Of a DNA stretch of 44,945 nucleotides, positions 33,840 through 44,945 are shown piece by piece (the first letter of the stretch is position 1; every line of letters starts with the position of its first letter). The position numbers were made by a program, and so were the translations under genes. Source of the stretch: Ignavibacteriaceae bacterium (GTDB taxonomy: Bacteria > Bacteroidota > Ignavibacteria > Ignavibacteriales > Ignavibacteriaceae). Below the pieces are notes generated by a model, which saw only the letters and a program-made list of their open reading frames with translations, searched no databases and was not told the origin of the DNA. The DNA is taken from NCBI GenBank assembly GCA_031292455.1, contig JARLHC010000033.1, positions 1 to 44,945 of the forward strand, read 5' to 3'.

Positions 33840-36800
33840 TTATTTCACAAGTATCATCTTTTTGGTAGAAGTGAAATTCTGTTTTCCATCCAAAGAGACA
33901 GCTTTAATACTATAGAAGTAGACGCCGCTTGAGAGCAATTTGGCATCAAAAGTAGTTTCATAAGATCCAGCACCCTGTACACCGCTCACAATTTCATTGA
34001 CTGTCTGGCCAAGGGAATTATAGATAATAAGCTTAACATTGCTGTCGAAAGCCAATGAATAGCTTATTCTAGTAGACGGATTCCATGGATTAGGATAATT
34101 CTGAGACAGGTTATAGGAAGCCGGTGCAGCGATTGCGGCATTAATAATACTGCTATAAGAATAGGTTCCGTCGTTATCCAACATTTTCAGGCGGTAACTA
34201 TATTTGCCAGCGTTTACATTTTTATCAGTAAATGAATAGGATTTAGGTGAATTACTGAGATTAGCTGCTTTAACGGAGGCAATTTTCTGCCATGTATCTG
34301 AGTCAGCTTTTTTCTTATACACTTCAAAAGAGGAGCTGTTTTTTTCTGTTGATGTATTCCATTTGAGCAAAACGCTTGCATCTTTTGTTTCGGCGGTAAA
34401 TGAAGACAATTCTACCGGCAATCCTACATAGCTAAATAAGTTTCCGTCAACATATATCAGAGAGGGAGTCCAGTTAGCAGCATAGGAATAACCAGAGCCT
34501 TTATTATTTTTCGAAAAGATATTAGCTATTGTATAAGTTGAGGCCTGTACATCAGTAATAGTTTGAGGCTGATTAGCGCCCGGCCATGCAGAATTCATAA
34601 CTGCTCTTGATTGAGCACCAGGACCGTAGCATCCATATTCAGAATAGAGAGAAGGGTTAGGTCCCATGACAGTCCAGCCGGCTATATTGACAGTAGCAGG
34701 TTCGTAACAATTGATATAGACAGTTTTAGGGGCATTCTGCCATGGTCTTCCCAAATAGAAAGTAGTCATAGGTTTACTATCAGCCCCGGAATCTCCAGCA
34801 GCCGTAGAACCGATAGTAGAATTGAGGAATACATAACCATAAGAATACCCGAATTCAGTAGCACCGGCGGTTAATACCCCGCCCTGCCTGTTGCAATAGA
34901 TAGTACAGTTATCAAAGAGAGCGACATCGTGCCCGAAGATAAAGTCTACAGAACCTTCAACATAACAGTTGTAATTGTAAATACGGTCAGGACCTGTAAG
35001 ACCACCCTGGGTATAATAAGTATCCTGATATCCAAGCATTCTGCAATTGTAATATGACTGCCTATCCCCATTAGTGCGCAGAGCGACAGCCTGGGCAGAA
35101 GTAACGCCCGGGGCATAAGCATTAGAGGTGTTCTGGAAGGTGATATCCTGAGCCTGGAAATCAGCTGCATCGATAGCAACAGAGTATGATGTATTGGTAC
35201 CGTTACTCAGAACTCCGTTTGTAGTGCGGTTGTTACCGGCGTAATCATCATAGGTTATAATAGTACGATCTCTATTCTGTCCTTTCAGGACAACATTTAT
35301 TTTTCCTGCAGCCAGAAGAGGTTTTTCGTAATATGTTCCTTCGGCGACATAAATAAACCAATGCCCGGTATAATTTGATGGAACTGCATTGAAAGCATCA
35401 GTAATAGTAGTATAGTCACAATCATGACCCGGAGTTCCGCCTTGTTTAACAAGTCTATAAACATCGGGCTGCGGGGCAGGGGTTGTGAATGAAACTTCAG
35501 ATCCATAGGAAGTACCAGAACTATTGGTTGCATAAGCACAAACATAGTAAGTTGTTCCCAGAGTGAGCCCACCGATGGGTGCTGTGAAAGTACCTTCTCC
35601 GCCAGCCCCAGCACTGTTATAGTCAATTGCAGTAGAGAGAGTAGGGTTCTGAGCAGTACCCCAGCAAATCCCGCGGTCAGTAATAGTAGAGCCACCCCAA
35701 GCAGAAATAGTTCCGCTTCCAGTAGCGCTTGTATTTACATTATTAGTTACTGCATTAGTAACAATAGAAGGAGTAGAAAGACTGGACAAAGTTGTGAATG
35801 TTAATTCACTTCCATATGCAGTTCCGGCACTATTAGTTGCGTAAGCACGGACATGATATGTATTTCCTGCTGTAAGTCCGGTAATAGAACTTGTAAATGG
35901 AGTTGAAGTAGTGCCGTCAGAAGTATGGGCATCTGAAGTAGTAGGAGTACCGCCTAAATTCCAGCATACTCCTTTAGCCGTAATAGTAGCATTACCATCG
36001 TTAGAAATGACACCGCCGCTTGTTGCAAAAGTAGTAGATATCAATGTAATAGTATTTGTAGAAACAGTTGGTAATATTGCTACAGAAGCGGGATTAACGT
36101 GAGCAATAATAAAATCGTTAGTTGTTAAATAGCCAAGGCCAGTAGATGACCCGAAAGAATTGGAAAGAATAGTTCCAGCATTATTAGCTGTACCGCTTCC
36201 ACCAAGGTTAATCCAATGGACAGCGCTGCTATCCTGAGCAATTCTAATATTGTCTTTATTACTGACATCGACACCATCATTTGTATTATAGCTTAACTGA
36301 ATGGTAGCTGATGATACGTTAGCGCCTGTTCCTTTAACAATGTGAACATATCGAGCAGTGGAAACCGCATCAAGTGCAAAGGGAAGCGTATAAGACGGGA
36401 CAGGAGATTCCTTAAGTTCTGCAGTGTACACTGTTGATGTAGCTGCATCCTGTGTTAAGGTTAAAGTAACCGGCCGGGAGACACTTCCTTTGCCTAATGG
36501 CAGATTTAGGACTTTTGATGTATTGACAGCAACTGTAGATGCAAGAGGCCCGTCGATATAGCCGGAACCGGACACTACACTGGTTGCAGCAACTGTAATT
36601 ATATTTGTTGCAGAAGTAATAAATTTTCCATTTGTAAGAACAAGATAGCCGGGGTTAGTAGCGGAGCCCACAGCTATAGGTGCATTAAGCTGAACAGCAG
36701 AATTATTCATTACGCCATAACTTAAATTCTGATTTGCGTTAGAGCTGGTATATGAGAAATTCTGAGTACCGTTGGATTTTGAGAAGATAAGTATTGTGCC

Positions 36801-37649
36801 AATGGCTTTATTAGATGGAAGAACAAACTGGCCTGTTCCGGTAGCCGAGAAATCACCATTCAGATACCAGGTACCAAAACCACCAGAGCCTCCGCATAAA
36901 TTGAACTTTCCGCTTGAAACAGTAATACTACCACCAACAGTTACATTATATTGGGCCGCCCCGCTTGAACCTGAGACAGTAAGATAGCCACCGTTTACAA
37001 TGACATTGCCATTTATTTTAATGTTTCTTGTTGTAGCGGCATTAGTCATTCTAAATTGGTAAGCGGCTGCAGTACCAGATGCTGTAACGGTAAGATCTCC
37101 ACTAACAGCAACCGGAACAGCGGCAGTACTATCCCAACTTAAATTCAAGTTTGTAGTTTGGCCAGGGCAGTTCCAAGTAAAATTATAAAATGATTGAGCA
37201 TTATTACCAGGAGAAGTGCCTGTTGTTCCTGATACGATACACGTTGATCCGGAATTCCATATTGACATGGGAATTGAGCCACTGGCGAGAGCATGTTCAT
37301 AAGTACTACCGTTATTGAATGTAAATGAATAAGGCACGGAGGTAGTAGCGGTTATAGCGGCCGTAGCTTTTAAATAACCATTTACAATAACCGGTATGCC
37401 ACTATTTATAGTTAAAGGGGCCGCAACAGTTATTGTATGGCCGCTTTGAATAGTAATAGTGCCAGAAGATCCGGTAGGTGCTGCTACTGCATCATTCCAG
37501 GTAGTTCCATCATAGGTTTGCCATGAAGTAATATCCGCCCAATTGCCTGATTGTTTGGATTGAAAATCACCTGCTGAGGCAGCAAAAAGATTAAATGATA
37601 AAAATAGGGTGAGAAGGGCAACAAGAGAAAAGGTAACGTATTTGTTCAT
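33840..37649 (-). CDS. Secreted pectin methylesterase (CE8) with T9SS sorting tail
   Basis: The 1269-residue protein has a signal peptide (1-24, ending LFAASAG) and a ~500-residue beta-rich N-terminal module starting GDFQSKQSGNWADITSW. Two Fn3-like repeats follow (~530-725; each has T-GVCW ... AYATNSxGT-YGSE-FTT), then a CE8 pectinesterase domain (~731-1075) with QAVALRTNGD, GYQDTYYT, GSVDFIFGHD and LGRPW supplying the catalytic Gln, two Asp and Arg. The last ~85 residues form a type A T9SS signal (NYPNPWNPSTRISYSL ... KKMILVK). It removes methyl esters from pectin outside the cell, preparing it for the pectate lyase encoded nearby. Its own promoter and operators lie at 37769-37837. Confidence 0.93.
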   Translation of the reverse strand: MNKYVTFSLVALLTLFLSFNLFAASAGDFQSKQSGNWADITSWQTYDGTTWNDAVAAPTGSSGTITIQSGHTITVAAPLTINSGIPVIVNGYLKATAAITATTSVPYSFTFNNGSTYEHALASGSIPMSIWNSGSTCIVSGTTGTSPGNNAQSFYNFTWNCPGQTTNLNLSWDSTAAVPVAVSGDLTVTASGTAAAYQFRMTNAATTRNIKINGNVIVNGGYLTVSGSSGAAQYNVTVGGSITVSSGKFNLCGGSGGFGTWYLNGDFSATGTGQFVLPSNKAIGTILIFSKSNGTQNFSYTSSNANQNLSYGVMNNSAVQLNAPIAVGSATNPGYLVLTNGKFITSATNIITVAATSVVSGSGYIDGPLASTVAVNTSKVLNLPLGKGSVSRPVTLTLTQDAATSTVYTAELKESPVPSYTLPFALDAVSTARYVHIVKGTGANVSSATIQLSYNTNDGVDVSNKDNIRIAQDSSAVHWINLGGSGTANNAGTILSNSFGSSTGLGYLTTNDFIIAHVNPASVAILPTVSTNTITLISTTFATSGGVISNDGNATITAKGVCWNLGGTPTTSDAHTSDGTTSTPFTSSITGLTAGNTYHVRAYATNSAGTAYGSELTFTTLSSLSTPSIVTNAVTNNVNTSATGSGTISAWGGSTITDRGICWGTAQNPTLSTAIDYNSAGAGGEGTFTAPIGGLTLGTTYYVCAYATNSSGTSYGSEVSFTTPAPQPDVYRLVKQGGTPGHDCDYTTITDAFNAVPSNYTGHWFIYVAEGTYYEKPLLAAGKINVVLKGQNRDRTIITYDDYAGNNRTTNGVLSNGTNTSYSVAIDAADFQAQDITFQNTSNAYAPGVTSAQAVALRTNGDRQSYYNCRMLGYQDTYYTQGGLTGPDRIYNYNCYVEGSVDFIFGHDVALFDNCTIYCNRQGGVLTAGATEFGYSYGYVFLNSTIGSTAAGDSGADSKPMTTFYLGRPWQNAPKTVYINCYEPATVNIAGWTVMGPNPSLYSEYGCYGPGAQSRAVMNSAWPGANQPQTITDVQASTYTIANIFSKNNKGSGYSYAANWTPSLIYVDGNLFSYVGLPVELSSFTAETKDASVLLKWNTSTEKNSSSFEVYKKKADSDTWQKIASVKAANLSNSPKSYSFTDKNVNAGKYSYRLKMLDNDGTYSYSSIINAAIAAPASYNLSQNYPNPWNPSTRISYSLAFDSNVKLIIYNSLGQTVNEIVSGVQGAGSYETTFDAKLLSSGVYFYSIKAVSLDGKQNFTSTKKMILVK

Positions 37650-39084: not shown

Positions 39085-40914
39085 TTACTTATCACTTACA
39101 TTTAATTTAAGTTTAACCTGTTTATCGAAATAGGTTCCCGGAGGAACTTGTCTTCCAACAAAGTTTGTATTATTGTTATCTACAAATGTCATATCATCTC
39201 CGGATATAAATCCATCTCCGTTTAAGTCGTTTACTGCATGATAATCAAAGTTGGTGTTATCATTATCTATACCTGTCATATCATCACCGCTGACAAAACC
39301 GTCCTGATTAAGATCGCCGCTATATATGCAATACTTACCGCCATGAAGTGACATCGGGTATGCGCTTCCGTCTGTATATGCTTTATTCAGAGCAGTTGTG
39401 AAATCATAGCTTAATGCACCGCCTGTAAAGCTAACTGCTGTTGCACTCCAGGTTTCTATTGTGTTTATACTTTTAACTACAATATAATAGTTTGTTCCGT
39501 TAACTGCTGTTGTATAAGTGAAAGTTCCAACACCAGCGGTAGTAAGAGTTCCTGTCTTTGCTTCCACCAAAGCAAAAGGAGACGTGGCATTATGTAATTC
39601 CACTGTAACAGTAGGAGTAATAGACATTGATGTTCCGCCAGCGACATACAATGCTTCAATAAGTGCAGTAAGATTAAGGTTAAGACTTGTATTTGTAACA
39701 ATGTACTCGAACGCCCCAATATCAGGTGCGCTTCCAGAATAAGGCAGACCTACATTAACGCCGGCATCAATGAACTGACTTCCTGCTTTCAATCTAAAGA
39801 AACCGTTATCAGGAAGATTTCCATTTGCCTGGCGGGGTGCGGTAGCAAGAGAAGTGTCAATACTTACAAAATCTGCTGAAGTGGGGGTCATATTCGGCCA
39901 GCTATTATTGGACAAGGTTGCATTACTTATTGTAACAGTGCCAGTATATGAGATACAATTCTTAATAACATGTAGACCTGTGATAGGGCTGTTGGTAAAA
40001 TGAAAATTATCCCCTTTATTTCTATATGCGAGACAGTTATATAATGTTATACCGGCAGTATCATTATTTTCGTCATAGCCTCTTCCGGTATCTCCTGCAT
40101 TATCAAATGAAACACAATTCTGGACCAGATGATGGGTAGCTACATAATTACCACCAAGTTTAAATCCATTGCCGTTATTGCCGGACAGAGTACCGCTCCA
40201 ACTGTTCACGCCATTTCTAAAAGCGAAGCAACTATCAATTTCGACTAAGCTATCAGCCATCCATAAATCAAAACCATCATCAGAATTCTGCCATGCCCGG
40301 CAACCTTTAAATACATTTCCTTTTCCGATATACCATTTAGGAGAAAAACCATCGGCATTTCCGCCACCAGTAGGAGCGTCATAGTTAAGATAGGAGTCAG
40401 TATTAAGAATCAAATTATGGCTTGGATAAAGGCCACTATTAGTGCCCCCGCCAAATTGGAATCCTGAATTCCTGTTGCTATGAATCTTACAAGCTTCGAT
40501 GGTATTATAGTGACCAGTACATGCGATCCCATTGTGTCCGGCATGCATTATCTCGAGTCCTTTAAGGTGGTAATAATCGCCGCTTATCGAAAACCCATCA
40601 GTTCCGACGGATTCACCGGCAAAGTCAATAACAGGTGTTTCATTGGGATAGGCCCAGATTTTAATAGTGCTAGCTGCAGTAGCGACTTTTGTAAGGGAGA
40701 TTTTAGCAGAATAGGAATAAGTTCCTCCTCTCAAATAGATATAGCCGCCTGTGCTACTCATCTTTCCGTTTGCGTAACTAATCGTTAGGAACGGCTGGGT
40801 TATTGAACCAGGATAGGAATCGCTACCATTGACAGGATCAACGTAATAAGTTGGCTGTGCAAATAAAGAACCAGATAACAGAAGCAGTGCAATTAGACAA
40901 GATCTCATGTTCAT
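39085..40914 (-). CDS. Secreted family 9 pectate lyase with dockerin-like C-terminal cassette
   Basis: Domains in 609 residues: signal peptide (1-19, ending LFAQ), a right-handed beta-helix (~25-405), a linker, a beta-sandwich-like segment (~413-525) and twin Ca-loop repeats (GDLNQDGFVSGDDM at ~533, NDLNGDGFISGDDM at ~562) like a dockerin. The helix has PL9 active-site residues D188 (NADGF), D212, D213, D216 (NSDDGFD) and K252 (GNGFKLGG). Each is exactly 21 residues lower than the Pel9A residues as I recall them (D209, D233, D234, D237, K273). There is no T9SS tail. It cleaves polygalacturonate by Ca-dependent beta-elimination. It is first in an apparent unit with kdgK copy 1, under the shared operator at 40933. 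Confidence 0.9.
   Translation of the reverse strand: MNMRSCLIALLLLSGSLFAQPTYYVDPVNGSDSYPGSITQPFLTISYANGKMSSTGGYIYLRGGTYSYSAKISLTKVATAASTIKIWAYPNETPVIDFAGESVGTDGFSISGDYYHLKGLEIMHAGHNGIACTGHYNTIEACKIHSNRNSGFQFGGGTNSGLYPSHNLILNTDSYLNYDAPTGGGNADGFSPKWYIGKGNVFKGCRAWQNSDDGFDLWMADSLVEIDSCFAFRNGVNSWSGTLSGNNGNGFKLGGNYVATHHLVQNCVSFDNAGDTGRGYDENNDTAGITLYNCLAYRNKGDNFHFTNSPITGLHVIKNCISYTGTVTISNATLSNNSWPNMTPTSADFVSIDTSLATAPRQANGNLPDNGFFRLKAGSQFIDAGVNVGLPYSGSAPDIGAFEYIVTNTSLNLNLTALIEALYVAGGTSMSITPTVTVELHNATSPFALVEAKTGTLTTAGVGTFTYTTAVNGTNYYIVVKSINTIETWSATAVSFTGGALSYDFTTALNKAYTDGSAYPMSLHGGKYCIYSGDLNQDGFVSGDDMTGIDNDNTNFDYHAVNDLNGDGFISGDDMTFVDNNNTNFVGRQVPPGTYFDKQVKLKLNVSDK
39280..39672 (-). repeat. Dockerin-like C-terminal cassette, copy 1 (inverted relative to 44551-44945)
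   Basis: 131 codons of the pectate lyase (from LTALIEALYVAGG to the first SGDD loop) align without gaps to the end of the protein encoded from 42859. I count about 16 differing residues, and the DNA is similarly close. The two copies lie in opposite orientation. Confidence 0.85.
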
Positions 40915-40932
40915 ACTAAATTTCCAAATTTA

Positions 40933-40997
40933 TTAAACGATAAAGTAACCGTTAAAGGTCTCTCAATTAAAATAAGATAAAATTGATTTATTAACAA
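40933..40997 (-). promoter_or_regulatory. Promoter and operator for the pectate lyase-kdgK unit
   Basis: Minus-strand -35 TTGTTA (40992-40997) and -10 TATTTT (40969-40974) have 17-base spacing. The operator 40933-40956 begins just past the expected start, with two CG-centred boxes 12 bp apart (reading AACGGTTACTTTATCGTT on the minus strand). The same box pair occurs at 37769, 42664 and, half decayed, 42293. Confidence 0.62.
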
Positions 40998-41094
40998 GTG
41001 ATGGAGATAAATAATTACAAGAATTCAAAGAATACGAAATTCTATTAAAAACAGTTGAATATTCAGAAAAACTTAAGAAATCAATATTTATATT

Positions 41095-41127
41095 AAAAAA
41101 GCCGGAGGCAATAGATTCCGGCTTTTT
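41095..41127. terminator. Bidirectional intrinsic terminator after kdgK copy 2
   Basis: A-run plus GCCGGA pairs with TCCGGC plus T-run (AAAAAGCCGGA / TCCGGCTTTTT), with a 10-base loop. It lies 28 bp past the stop of the minus-strand kinase gene. Confidence 0.85.
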
Positions 41128-41154
41128 AGATTATATACTATACATAATTGAGAT

Positions 41155-42237
41155 TCATCGTTGAATGCGAGCAGAGCCTCCCTTAGCAAAAGCACGAACT
41201 TCTTCAAGAGTTGCCATTGATGTATCGCCCGGGAAAGTAGTAAGGAGAGCGCCATGAGCCCATCCTAATTTTACAGCTTCTTCCGGTGACTCACCTGAAA
41301 GCAGGCCATATATGATTCCACTTGCGAACCCATCGCCTCCACCGACGCGATCAAATACATGAAGTTCAGCGGTAGGGGCTGTATATGTTTTACCGTTTAT
41401 CCACGCAACAGCGCTCCAGCTATGATGAACAGTAGAGTGAACTTCCCGCAAGGTAGTGGCGACTGCTTTTACCTTAGGATATTTGGCAACTACTTTATCG
41501 ATCATTCCGAAAAAGGTAGAGGGGTCGAGTTTAGATTTTGCTGCTACTTCAGGGCCAGGGACATCGAGACCTTTCTGAAGATCTTCCTCATTGCCGACCA
41601 GGAAGTCGACATTTTCAACTATACGGGCTATAACTTCAACGGCCTTCTTCTGGCCGCCCCAGATATTCCATAATTTTTCGCGGTAATTAAGATCAAAGCT
41701 AGTAACAGCGCCAGCCTGTTTAGCAGCTTTCATACCTTCGATAATAAGTTCTCCGGTAGATTCTGAAAGAGAAGCAAAAATACCTCCACTATGGAACCAG
41801 CGCACCCCATTCTTAAATATTGTTTTCCAATCAAAATCTCCCGGTTTTAAGAAGGAAGCAGCTTCATTGCAACGGTTATAAAATACAACAGGAGCGCGGA
41901 CACCAAATCCCTGATCGCTATAAACCGTAGCCATATTAGGACCGTTAACACCGTTATGTTTAAATTCTTTGTAAAAGGGTTTAACGCCCATTGCCCGGAC
42001 ACGTTCAGCTATCAATTCACCGATCGGGTAGTTGACCATTGCGCTAGCAACTGCCGTGTTCATACGGAAGCAGTAAGCAAGATTAGCAGCGACATTAAAC
42101 TCTCCCCCGCTAACATGTATTTTACATTCATTTGCTCTCCTAAAGGGGATGTGCCCGGGATCAAGCCTGTGGACCAATGCGCCGAGTGAAAGAAGATCCA
42201 AAGCGCCATCTGATTTTATTGATAAACCATTATCCAT
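41155..42237 (-). CDS. kdgK: 2-Keto-3-deoxygluconate kinase-like PfkB sugar kinase (copy 2)
   Basis: The 360-residue PfkB-family kinase has HVSGGEFNVAANLAYCF at the sugar-binding lid and DRVGGGDGFASGIIYGLL at the catalytic Asp. It shares the WFHSGGIFASLS and SFDLNYREKLWNIWGG patterns with copy 1 but is clearly divergent and longer. Two similar kinases in one pectin locus may act on KDG and another keto-deoxy acid (for example 5-keto-4-deoxyuronate products), which the sequence cannot decide. It is a single-gene unit with its own operator at 42293-42319 and a strong terminator. Confidence 0.83.
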   Translation of the reverse strand: MDNGLSIKSDGALDLLSLGALVHRLDPGHIPFRRANECKIHVSGGEFNVAANLAYCFRMNTAVASAMVNYPIGELIAERVRAMGVKPFYKEFKHNGVNGPNMATVYSDQGFGVRAPVVFYNRCNEAASFLKPGDFDWKTIFKNGVRWFHSGGIFASLSESTGELIIEGMKAAKQAGAVTSFDLNYREKLWNIWGGQKKAVEVIARIVENVDFLVGNEEDLQKGLDVPGPEVAAKSKLDPSTFFGMIDKVVAKYPKVKAVATTLREVHSTVHHSWSAVAWINGKTYTAPTAELHVFDRVGGGDGFASGIIYGLLSGESPEEAVKLGWAHGALLTTFPGDTSMATLEEVRAFAKGGSARIQR

Positions 42238-42292
42238 ATTAATTCCTTATATCTTGTTAAACAAAGTGAAGAATTTGACCTGATTCAATAAA

Positions 42293-42363
42293 TTTACTTA
42301 AACGGTTACTTAAATATTTCTCAAATGAGAAAGAAAGTTAGTTAATATGAAAATGTATGTCAA
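42293..42363 (-). promoter_or_regulatory. Promoter and operator for kdgK copy 2
   Basis: Minus-strand -35 TTGACA (42358-42363) and -10 TAACTT (42335-42340) have 17-base spacing. The operator TTTACTTAAACGGTTACTTAA region (42293-42319) has one perfect CG-centred box. Its partner position 12 bp away has decayed to AT, so this may be the weakest site of the set. Confidence 0.6.
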
Positions 42364-42621
42364 CATTATTATTACATTAGCAAAATTTTATTACAAATTC
42401 ACCTGTCAAAATTCAATCCGGCATCATTGATAAAAGATAACGGATATTGAAATTCAAAATTGATTTTATAATTAAAGTGGACACAGGAACTATAAATTTC
42501 CGGAATAATGCAAAACCAGACCTTAAAGAAGGCAGAAATGGAAATACCAGACAGGATATTGTTATCGATTTTGAGAAATTACTATTATGGATAGAAACTT
42601 TTCTATTCTTTCTGATTTTTC

Positions 42622-42689
42622 TTGACATTAGCTGAAATATTTGTAATTTTTTAGTCAATAAATCTTTATCGTTTACTTAATCGATAAAG
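42622..42689 (+). promoter_or_regulatory. Promoter and operator for the large secreted protein at 42859
   Basis: Plus-strand -35 TTGACA (42622-42627) and -10 TAATTT (42644-42649) have 16-base spacing. They are followed by a perfect inverted repeat CTTTATCG-N10-CGATAAAG (42664-42689) with CG steps 12 bp apart, placed about 8 bases past the expected start. A further half site (GTTACTTAAAT) lies at 42713. The leader to the ATG is about 200 bases and shows no other feature. Confidence 0.65.
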
Positions 42690-42858
42690 TAGATATTTGT
42701 AATATGTATATTGTTACTTAAATTTTTATTCAAATCTTTCTTCCTGACATTATGAAAATTGTTTATCAGTTTTCCTGCTCAATCATTTACTTCTTTATTT
42801 CAGGTAATTCTATTCAGCAATTTCATTTTTTCAATAATTATATCAAAAAGGAACTAGT

Positions 42859-44945
42859 ATGAAAAAACTTAGATTACTTCTCGTATGCCTTTTTATTATC
42901 GGATTGATCACTGCTCCGACCATGTTTGGAGCAAATACAGGTGATTTTCAATCAGCCGGATCCGGTAACTGGGGAACTTTAGCTACCTGGCAGACCTGGA
43001 ACGGAACAAGCTGGGTGGCAGCAACTTCAATACCCGACTCTAACATTACCACAGGACTATTGGTTACAGTTCTAAGCGGACATAATGTTACAGTTGCAGC
43101 TACTATTGGTGTTTCCAATGTAACAATTAATTCAGGAGGAACGGTAACTGTAACAGCTCCAGCAGTTCTTTATATTACCAAATCAGGGATGACTGTAAAT
43201 GGATCACTTATTATTGGGGGTAATGCACCTACAGCCACACCTTATACAGTAACAGTAACATCAGGTGTTTTAACAGTTGGAGGCACGGGCACTGTTTATT
43301 ATGATCAGGGAGCTGCGGCAACAGCCACAAAGGGTGCTCTTCCAAATGCAACATGGCAGACAGGTTCCACACTTCAAGTTGATTCCACTGGCGGAGCAAC
43401 TGCTGCAAGTTTTGGTGCAGGCGGAGGACAGAATTTTTATAATTTAATATGGAACGTAACGAATTCGAGTGCAAATTTTGGATTGAGCTTATACACCAAT
43501 ACTATTGGCGGAAATGTATCAGTATTAAAAACCGGTACCGGCCGTTTACAATTTTTCGGCAGCAACCCAGGCACACTTAAAATTTTGGGGAATCTTATTG
43601 TTTCCGGTGCAGCCAACGTTACCAGTCAGGGCTCCAGCACTGCCAATATAAATGATACAATTTTTGTTTATGGTAAAGTAAATGTGAGCACAACCGGTAA
43701 CTTTTCAGTAGCCCGTGGTTCTCAGGGAGGTGCTACTGGCGGTACTTCAACATCAATATGGAATTTCCTAGGTGATTCTGTTAAAATAATTGCAGCAACA
43801 ATGCAGAACTCAGATACTGGTTCATCAGTCGCAAAATTTGTATTCAAAAAAAGTGGCACCCAGTACCTATCTATATCGACTACCACTGCAAGCGGAAATG
43901 CATTCCCGATTGAAGTAGATGCGGGAACGACTGTATCGCTTGCATCTCCAGTTAATGTAACGACATTATATTTGAATGGAGGTATTATTAATTCATCTGC
44001 ATCAAATCCATTAATAATGGGTTGGTGGACAGGCACAACACTTACAAGCGGAACGATCAGTCCTACCGCTCCGGGTAGTTCGACAAGTTATGTTAACGGA
44101 CCTATGGCATATTTAGTTGCTGCTGCAGGATCTACTACTAAAACATATGCAATCGGAAAAGGCGGAGCTTATCGTCCGGTAAAATTATCACTTAATCAAA
44201 GTGCTGCAACTCTTTCAACTTATACAGCAGAGATGTTCAGTGCAGCACCTCCTTCATATACCCTGCCCGGAACATTGAGCAGCGTATCTTCTGTAAGATA
44301 TTATAAGATTTCAGAAACAGCAGGAGGATCAGCGTTTACTGCCGGATCAGTTTTATTGAATTATGATACAGACGACTTAGTAAATAATGCAGCAGTATTA
44401 AGAGTTGCAAAGGATGATGGTTCAGGCAACTGGGTTGATTTAGGGGGTTCAGGAAGTGCAGACAACACCGGAACCATAACATCAGCTACAGCCTTTACAA
44501 CTTTAAGTAATAATTATTTTGTACTTGCTAAATCAGAGAGAGTATTGACACTTAAAGCTTTAATTGAGGCCTTATATGTAGCAGGCGGAACAGCAATGCC
44601 GATTACTCCAGATGTTACAGTAGAACTGCATAATGCTACTTCTCCTTATACATTAGTTGAATCCCAGACAGGCACATTAAGTACAGCAGGTGTTGGAACA
44701 TTCAGTTTTGCAACTGCAGTAAACGGAACGAACTATTATATAGTAGTAAAAAGCATGAATACAGTAGAGATCTGGAGCGCCACAGCAGTTAGCTTTACAG
44801 GCGGTGCATTAAGCTATGATTTCACAACTGCTCTGAATAAAGCATATACAGACGGAAGTGCAGATCCAATGTCACTTCATGGTGGTAAATACTGCATATA
44901 CAGCGGCGACTTAAACCAGGACGGTTTTGTCAGCGGTGATGATAT
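42859..44945 (+). CDS. Large secreted beta-rich protein with dockerin-like repeats (3' truncated by window)
   Basis: Open to the window end (695 codons seen). RBS AAAAAGGA lies 7 bases before ATG 42859. A signal peptide (1-25, ending PTMFGA) leads into GDFQSAGSGNWGTLATWQTWNG, the same module that begins the pectin methylesterase. The two stay alignable for ~500 residues (for example NGPMAYLVAAAG / DGPLASTVAVN; PSYTLP; NWVDLGGSGSADN / HWINLGGSGTANN). The last ~130 residues match the pectate lyase cassette and end inside the first Ca loop (GDLNQDGFVSGDD). The segment shows no catalytic domain; one may lie beyond the window. It is presumably cell-surface or extracellular and co-regulated with pectin enzymes through the operator at 42664. 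Confidence 0.88.
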   Translation, partial: MKKLRLLLVCLFIIGLITAPTMFGANTGDFQSAGSGNWGTLATWQTWNGTSWVAATSIPDSNITTGLLVTVLSGHNVTVAATIGVSNVTINSGGTVTVTAPAVLYITKSGMTVNGSLIIGGNAPTATPYTVTVTSGVLTVGGTGTVYYDQGAAATATKGALPNATWQTGSTLQVDSTGGATAASFGAGGGQNFYNLIWNVTNSSANFGLSLYTNTIGGNVSVLKTGTGRLQFFGSNPGTLKILGNLIVSGAANVTSQGSSTANINDTIFVYGKVNVSTTGNFSVARGSQGGATGGTSTSIWNFLGDSVKIIAATMQNSDTGSSVAKFVFKKSGTQYLSISTTTASGNAFPIEVDAGTTVSLASPVNVTTLYLNGGIINSSASNPLIMGWWTGTTLTSGTISPTAPGSSTSYVNGPMAYLVAAAGSTTKTYAIGKGGAYRPVKLSLNQSAATLSTYTAEMFSAAPPSYTLPGTLSSVSSVRYYKISETAGGSAFTAGSVLLNYDTDDLVNNAAVLRVAKDDGSGNWVDLGGSGSADNTGTITSATAFTTLSNNYFVLAKSERVLTLKALIEALYVAGGTAMPITPDVTVELHNATSPYTLVESQTGTLSTAGVGTFSFATAVNGTNYYIVVKSMNTVEIWSATAVSFTGGALSYDFTTALNKAYTDGSADPMSLHGGKYCIYSGDLNQDGFVSGDD
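44551..44945 (+). repeat. Dockerin-like cassette, copy 2 (cut by window end)
   Basis: The sequence encodes LKALIEALYVAGGTAMP through GDLNQDGFVSGDD. It is gap-free against 39280-39672 on the opposite strand, with long runs of identical DNA near the end (the AYTDGSA to SGDD part). It is the second copy of the inverted pair. Confidence 0.85.

Follow-up and report, generated by a model that had tools for sequence, protein, structure and literature searches.

An X-module-dockerin-like cassette takes the place of type IX secretion tails on secreted proteins of an Ignavibacteriaceae bacterium and its relatives

To our knowledge, dockerins are known almost only together with cohesins. Type I dockerins are made of two 22-residue repeats, each comprising a calcium loop of the form DxNxDGxxxxxD and a helix. 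Specificity is determined by positions 10 and 11 in both repeats, and the sequence symmetry between the repeats underlies a dual binding mode (PMC8063739). The closest published case to the one described here is found in the Cloacimonadota, where dockerin-bearing enzymes of the Gram-negative 'Ca. Stygibacter' are accompanied by a cohesin scaffoldin that is anchored through a C-terminal domain (CTD) of the type IX secretion system (T9SS) (PMC8542988). T9SS CTDs themselves fall into several types that are not related to one another and are served by dedicated shuttles (PMC10202324, PMC12618676). In Melioribacter roseus, a relative from the same broad lineage as the bacterium considered here, cellulase genes have been reported without a dockerin or scaffoldin domain (PMC3534657). 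The present analysis concerns a C-terminal cassette of about 185 residues carried by two proteins of a pectin locus in an Ignavibacteriaceae bacterium (GCA_031292455.1). The window, i.e., the whole stretch of 44,945 nucleotides that was analysed, is the complete contig C48 (1-44945) of a 171-contig, 96.7% complete metagenome-assembled genome (MAG). The fold of the cassette is a known one, and its setting was not found described: X-dockerin-like tags borne by enzymes of T9SS bacteria, which alternate with T9SS tails and occur where cohesins cannot be detected. A literature search found no paper on XDoc (X-module-dockerin) modules in T9SS bacteria.

The two proteins of the window are a PL9-type pectate lyase, whose beta-helix domain is recognised by PF22842 (E 2e-20), and a secreted protein encoded from position 42859 (the 42859 protein). 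Their cassettes align without gaps over 133 codons, from LNLTALIEAL at residue 413 of the lyase (from 39678 downwards, minus strand) and from LTLKALIEAL at residue 563 of the 42859 protein (from 44545 upwards, plus strand). Over this length, 116 residues are identical, 17 codons change the residue, 40 change synonymously, and 332 of 401 nucleotides are the same; the first-pass annotation, which counted 131 codons with about 16 differences, was correct. The differences are clustered and leave one identical run of 77 nucleotides, a length reached in none of 1000 shuffles. A protein search recovered 17 cassette matches in this genome (E 4.6e-129 to 1.8e-18), which at the level of sequence excludes chance resemblance; the search for further copies that had been proposed has thereby disposed of the reservation that the cassette might be confined to the two window genes. 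Three relatives hold four to six matches each: one belongs to the same genus, and the other two are single-contig genomes of the same family. Fewer matches occur elsewhere. In a scan of 84,980 species genomes, 444 encoded relatives were found, and the best 79 of these 444 loci all come from records named as members of Ignavibacteria or Bacteroidota; in a sample of the phylum, a match at E<=1e-6 occurs in 31 of 392 genomes. One locus of the genome scan (L122) belongs to a cultured T9SS species, Flavobacterium buctense, whose copy is only distantly related. The hosts are functionally mixed and include the pectin lyase, nucleases, proteases, a sulfotransferase and FISUMP proteins. No NCBIfam model covers the cassette in the proteins scanned, and Pfam gives them only weak dockerin or EF-hand signals, with at most a borderline dockerin match.

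The fold of the cassette is predicted with high confidence to be that of an X-module-dockerin dyad, matched as one unit. The AlphaFold model of the lyase cassette, built on a 26-row alignment, has a predicted local distance difference test score (pLDDT) of 90.8 and a predicted TM-score of 0.86. Among solved structures, the top eight VIA-align rows are all clostridial type II XDoc structures (Z 12.5-14.0, root-mean-square deviation 3.2-3.4 A) aligned over 144-152 residues, essentially the whole cassette (model residues 1-186), followed at Z 6.6 by a protein that has no relation to them. Foldseek places 4fl4 (E 2.3e-4) and then 2b59 (E 1e-3) first, a search of the PDB with the cassette profile returns dockerins for the most part (best E 8.5e-4), and Dockerin_1 matches 16 of 26 cassette members at E<=0.1 (best 3e-5). 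Two of the genome's copies pass the PF00404 gathering cut-off, and the two window proteins fall below it in the whole-protein scan. The two repeats themselves are of type I dockerin form, and exactly two calcium loops are present in 160 of 176 copies and at least two in 162. The description in the first-pass annotation of a dockerin-like module with a beta-sandwich and twin calcium loops is thus supported by the predicted model and its XDoc matches, and can now be narrowed to an X-module-dockerin-like one; this assignment covers the close subfamily only, the model of a distant subfamily (A3) being poor (pLDDT 54). Like the XDoc of the CipA and ScaA scaffoldins, the cassette would have a beta-sandwich followed by twin loop-helix repeats and lies at the C-terminus. 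It differs from them in occurring in many copies on enzymes and further secreted proteins, in Gram-negative bacteria with a T9SS, where the clostridial module sits on one scaffoldin; in the lack of a cohesin partner found in cassette-rich genomes, and in an identity of only 16-19% over the aligned part. With enzyme-borne dockerins (PF00404), including that of XDoc-Xyn10 of Acetivibrio cellulolyticus, it shares the tandem DxNxDGxxxxxD loops, the enzyme hosts and the symmetric residues at positions 10 and 11; unlike them, the window copies are unmatched by PF00404 in the whole-protein scan, the hosts include nucleases, proteases and lyases, and no scaffoldin was found.

The symmetry of the repeats could be followed in 165 copies from 45 genomes, from which both repeats were extracted. 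The loop-1 helix is 52% identical to the loop-2 helix of its own copy, as against 18% to those of other genomes (200 cyclic comparisons, maximum 22%), and the observed value was reached in none of 10,000 permutations. The excess is greatest at positions 10, 13, 14, 17, 23, 21, 20 and 11 and about zero at 2, 4, 6, 8 and 15, which is not what plain recent duplication would give, since that would lift all positions alike. Judged from these alignments, the two repeats share lineage-specific residues at the dockerin recognition positions (10, 11, 13, 14, 17 and others). This code is mostly, not wholly, common within a genome, as the present genome has two groups of copies, of SGDD type and LSD type.

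A further property of the cassette is that it alternates with the T9SS type A tail. This genome has a T9SS, with 112 type A tail matches, SprA and a PorV family of 18 matches. Scans with Por_Secre_tail (PF18962) and TIGR04183 detect no T9SS tail in the lyase, which stops 15 residues past the cassette, and detect one in the neighbouring methylesterase, as the first-pass annotation had claimed. Among the 180 cassette proteins whose natural end is present, the stop follows the cassette within 5 residues in 132 and within 30 in 158. A simple hydrophobicity rule recognises a signal-peptide-like N-terminus in 144 of 150 cassette proteins with both ends, compared with 151 of 362 neighbours. Only one protein in about 180 has both cassette and T9SS tail. 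Tandem arylsulfotransferase-like paralogues at locus L077, 89% identical over 385 residues, end one in a cassette and the other in a T9SS tail; S1/P1-nuclease-like proteins on contigs C163 and C85 (73% identical) differ in the same way. Over 532 residues, the 42859 protein shares 60% identity with a protein of contig C49 in the same genome that ends in a T9SS tail, and at the same C49 locus lies a T9SS-tailed PL9 lyase to which the window lyase is 39% identical. Because homologous hosts carry either the cassette or the tail, the cassette occupies the place of an anchoring or sorting tail, and the earlier suggestion that it is an alternative to the T9SS tail agrees with these pairs. The C49 locus (L045, G000:C49:22000-37864) is a second, probably pectin or uronate, locus that also holds another cassette protein and, by sequence appearance only, uronate-isomerase-like, transporter-like, SusC-like and aldolase-like genes. 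Like the T9SS CTDs (type A, TIGR04183/PF18962, and types B and C), the cassette stands at the C-terminus of proteins with a signal peptide, in the same genomes. It shows no sequence relationship to these CTDs, has about double the length of type A and is sometimes internal; its dependence on the T9SS is hypothetical.

The copies within a genome resemble one another more than their hosts would predict. In a tree, cassettes group mostly by genome, and the best match lies in the own genome for all 21 cassettes of this genome (G000) and the same-genus genome (G001), compared with 6 of 10 T9SS tails, a small sample. Homologous hosts of the two genomes (Endonuclease_NS, S1/P1-nuclease-like) are 52-76% identical in their host regions and merely 50-55% in their cassettes, as against 75-90% between cassettes of unrelated hosts inside one genome. 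Identical runs of 77, 102 and 128 nucleotides, found within copies that are 81-88% identical, exceed all shuffles; the two longer ones involve contig-end copies, and the 77-nucleotide run, which the lyase shares with C49, lies inside both contigs. Tree grouping, identity contrast and long identical runs all support the spread by duplication or gene conversion that had been suggested at first.

On balance, we favour the view that the cassette is an enzyme-borne X-dockerin-like docking tag that replaces T9SS anchoring and recognises a lineage-specific, non-canonical receptor. In such a model, T9SS-bearing Ignavibacteria and Bacteroidota would export enzymes and other secreted proteins through Sec signal peptides, each bearing either a T9SS tail or the tag. 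The tag would fold around two Ca2+ ions and would use a face of two-fold symmetry, whose code varies from lineage to lineage and is common to most copies of a genome, to keep its enzyme attached to a shared partner at the envelope or surface of the cell; in this genome, that partner would be no recognisable cohesin. The tag would thereby serve in anchoring and complex formation, after crossing the outer membrane by a route that the model presumes. Tags would have spread among unrelated hosts by duplication, and gene conversion would keep them alike.

Several points weigh against this proposal. A shared fold does not prove binding, and no partner was identified by any method tried. In this genome, PF00963 finds no cohesin at E<=1 and a class-specific cohesin profile (A2) gives no match, although at 96.7% completeness the absence is not absolute; the six other cassette-richest genomes (8-23 copies found) have no PF00963 cohesin over the curated cut-off. 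Cohesins occur in 13 of 31 cassette genomes of the phylum sample and in 79 of 361 without the cassette (hand count); within the class, the hand counts are about 12 of 24 and 39 of 80, and since these frequencies are about equal, there is no association between cohesin and cassette beyond taxonomy. The cellulosome-like cohesin partner of the first-pass annotation is not supported here: the search proposed for it came back empty here and in the other cassette-richest genomes, and only in two more distant genomes, G361 and G053, do cohesin-T9SS proteins adjoin proteins made of a cohesin and a related cassette, so that a cohesin link may exist in that branch. 'Ca. Stygibacter', with its cohesin scaffoldin, differs from the present case in this respect. 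The repeat symmetry could also partly be inherited from an intragenic duplication, and in 17 of 45 genomes the repeat 2 of another genome fits better than the own one, as expected if related genomes share codes. Finally, we know of no export route for proteins without a T9SS tail.

The main rival is a reading of the cassette as a T9SS sorting signal in its own right, which would add a further type to A, B and C and be recognised by SprA together with a PorV/PorP-like shuttle; the dockerin-like fold would then have been co-opted, with no need for a cohesin. We consider this unlikely without being negligible. It accords with the replacement of the type A tail on near-identical paralogues, the C-terminal place, the several PorV-family proteins encoded, the lack of cohesins in cassette-rich genomes and the existing diversity of CTD types and shuttles. 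Every one of 33 cassette genomes encodes SprA, compared with 320 of 392 in the phylum sample, but this enrichment is confounded by one SprA-less family. The cassette is, moreover, internal in 8 of 180 proteins, most of which have intact domains after it (FISUMP, Endonuclease_NS) and no T9SS tail, two-fold symmetric and lineage-specific recognition positions would be unexpected in a sorting signal, and comparable homogenisation within genomes is not seen among T9SS tails in the small sample compared. An ordinary cohesin whose gene is missing from the MAG, or too divergent for the profiles, is improbable. The XDoc fold, the adjacent cohesin-XDoc and cohesin-T9SS proteins of G361 and G053, a T9SS-tailed cohesin about 25 kb from a cassette cluster in G002 and four cohesin matches in G001 speak for it. 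Against these stand the single-contig genomes G020 (four cassettes) and G161 (two cassettes), neither with a cohesin over the cut-off, the six further cassette-rich genomes without any, and G007, which has 10 cohesin matches and no cassette. Equally low in probability is a partnerless, Ca2+-stabilised C-terminal cap that folds and protects secreted proteins and has spread as a neutral or mildly useful element; mixed hosts and the failure to find a partner would suit it, but the homogenisation within genomes and the symmetric coupling of recognition positions point to a shared ligand, and the swap with an anchoring tail also speaks against it.

More broadly, this large, unannotated family of C-terminal tags with an X-dockerin fold could represent a second surface-delivery route in T9SS bacteria, either as a new class of T9SS sorting signal or through docking with a non-cohesin receptor. 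We put this forward tentatively, judging it not quite an even prospect; if true, either case would mean that recognition of the dockerin type has acquired a new partner. An X-dockerin-like tag that has multiplied and been homogenised in genomes where no cohesin is detected while swapping with a T9SS tail raises the question of what it binds and whether T9SS sorting has been replaced. The answer would annotate hundreds of secreted proteins, and if such a tag and its receptor pair up in a Ca-dependent manner, they would offer protein assembly a new tool of Gram-negative origin. The features of the window are collected in the table.

Table. Positions of the cassette copies, their parts and their host and neighbouring genes in the window
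Feature	Position	Strand	Basis or remarks
Pectin methylesterase, 1269 residues, T9SS type A tail	33840..37649	-	PF01095 E 1.7e-47; PF18962 28.4 bits; TIGR04183 32.4 bits
PL9-type pectate lyase, 609 residues	39085..40914	-	N-terminus resembling a signal peptide; beta-helix domain at residues 13-308; cassette at the C-terminus; T9SS tail lacking
Cassette copy 1 (lyase residues 408-594), X-dockerin-like module	39133..39693	-	Cassette model match, predicted structure
X-module-like beta-sandwich part of copy 1	39334..39693 (boundary approximate)	-	Beta-strand elements of the predicted model
Lyase calcium loop 1, DLNQDGFVSGDD	39280..39315	-	Followed by helix MTGIDNDNTNF (39247-39279), model helix 137-149
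Lyase calcium loop 2, DLNGDGFISGDD	39193..39228	-	Followed by helix MTFVDNNNTNF (39160-39192), model helix 166-177
42859 protein, secreted, function unknown, 695 residues, open at the contig end	42859..44943	+	Open reading frame
Cassette copy 2 (42859-protein residues 563-695), cut by the contig end after calcium loop 1	44545..44943	+	Alignment to copy 1
42859-protein calcium loop 1, DLNQDGFVSGDD	44908..44943	+	Loop motif

The second loop of the lyase lies below 39280, where the first-pass annotation had started the feature. That of the 42859 protein is unassembled because the contig breaks inside a repeat copy: the last 40 nucleotides of C48 recur in cassette copies on C49 and C106, the end of C106 recurs in the lyase copy, and C48 stops at 44945 because its end falls within the repeated cassette. 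In an attempt to join contigs past 44945, no exact overlap of at least 15 nucleotides was found among the contig ends compared. Contig C60 (L057, 3030 bases), which also has a cassette copy, ends in 90 nucleotides that are the reverse complement of its first 90, an assembly artefact or an inverted repeat.

The surroundings of the cassette genes show some regularities of their own. Conserved clusters of three or four adjacent cassette genes occur in four genomes (L060:6891-16158, L061:4962-11395, L088:1580-8017 and L086:2169-9666), with nuclease, protease and other hosts and with T9SS-tailed or other secreted proteins as flanks. A recurrent neighbour gene was considered as a candidate partner and set aside, as none of the secreted families is found repeatedly next to cassettes in many genomes. 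A helical-repeat (TPR-like) family of about 490 residues, without a Pfam family above the cut-off, adjoins cassette genes, e.g., at L125:317-1798, L111:2959-4434 and L093:2367-3839 (all on the minus strand). Twenty of its 22 copies, from 7 genomes, lie 20-700 bp from a cassette gene, often divergently, in loci that were fetched around cassettes and have no control; the family may regulate or accompany cassette genes. In this genome and the same-genus relative, cassette genes are also flanked by tandem PMT_2+TPR glycosyltransferases (L046:3324-14998, L058:15174-19167, L056:11326-13359), the architecture of which is like that of TMTC O-mannosyltransferases.

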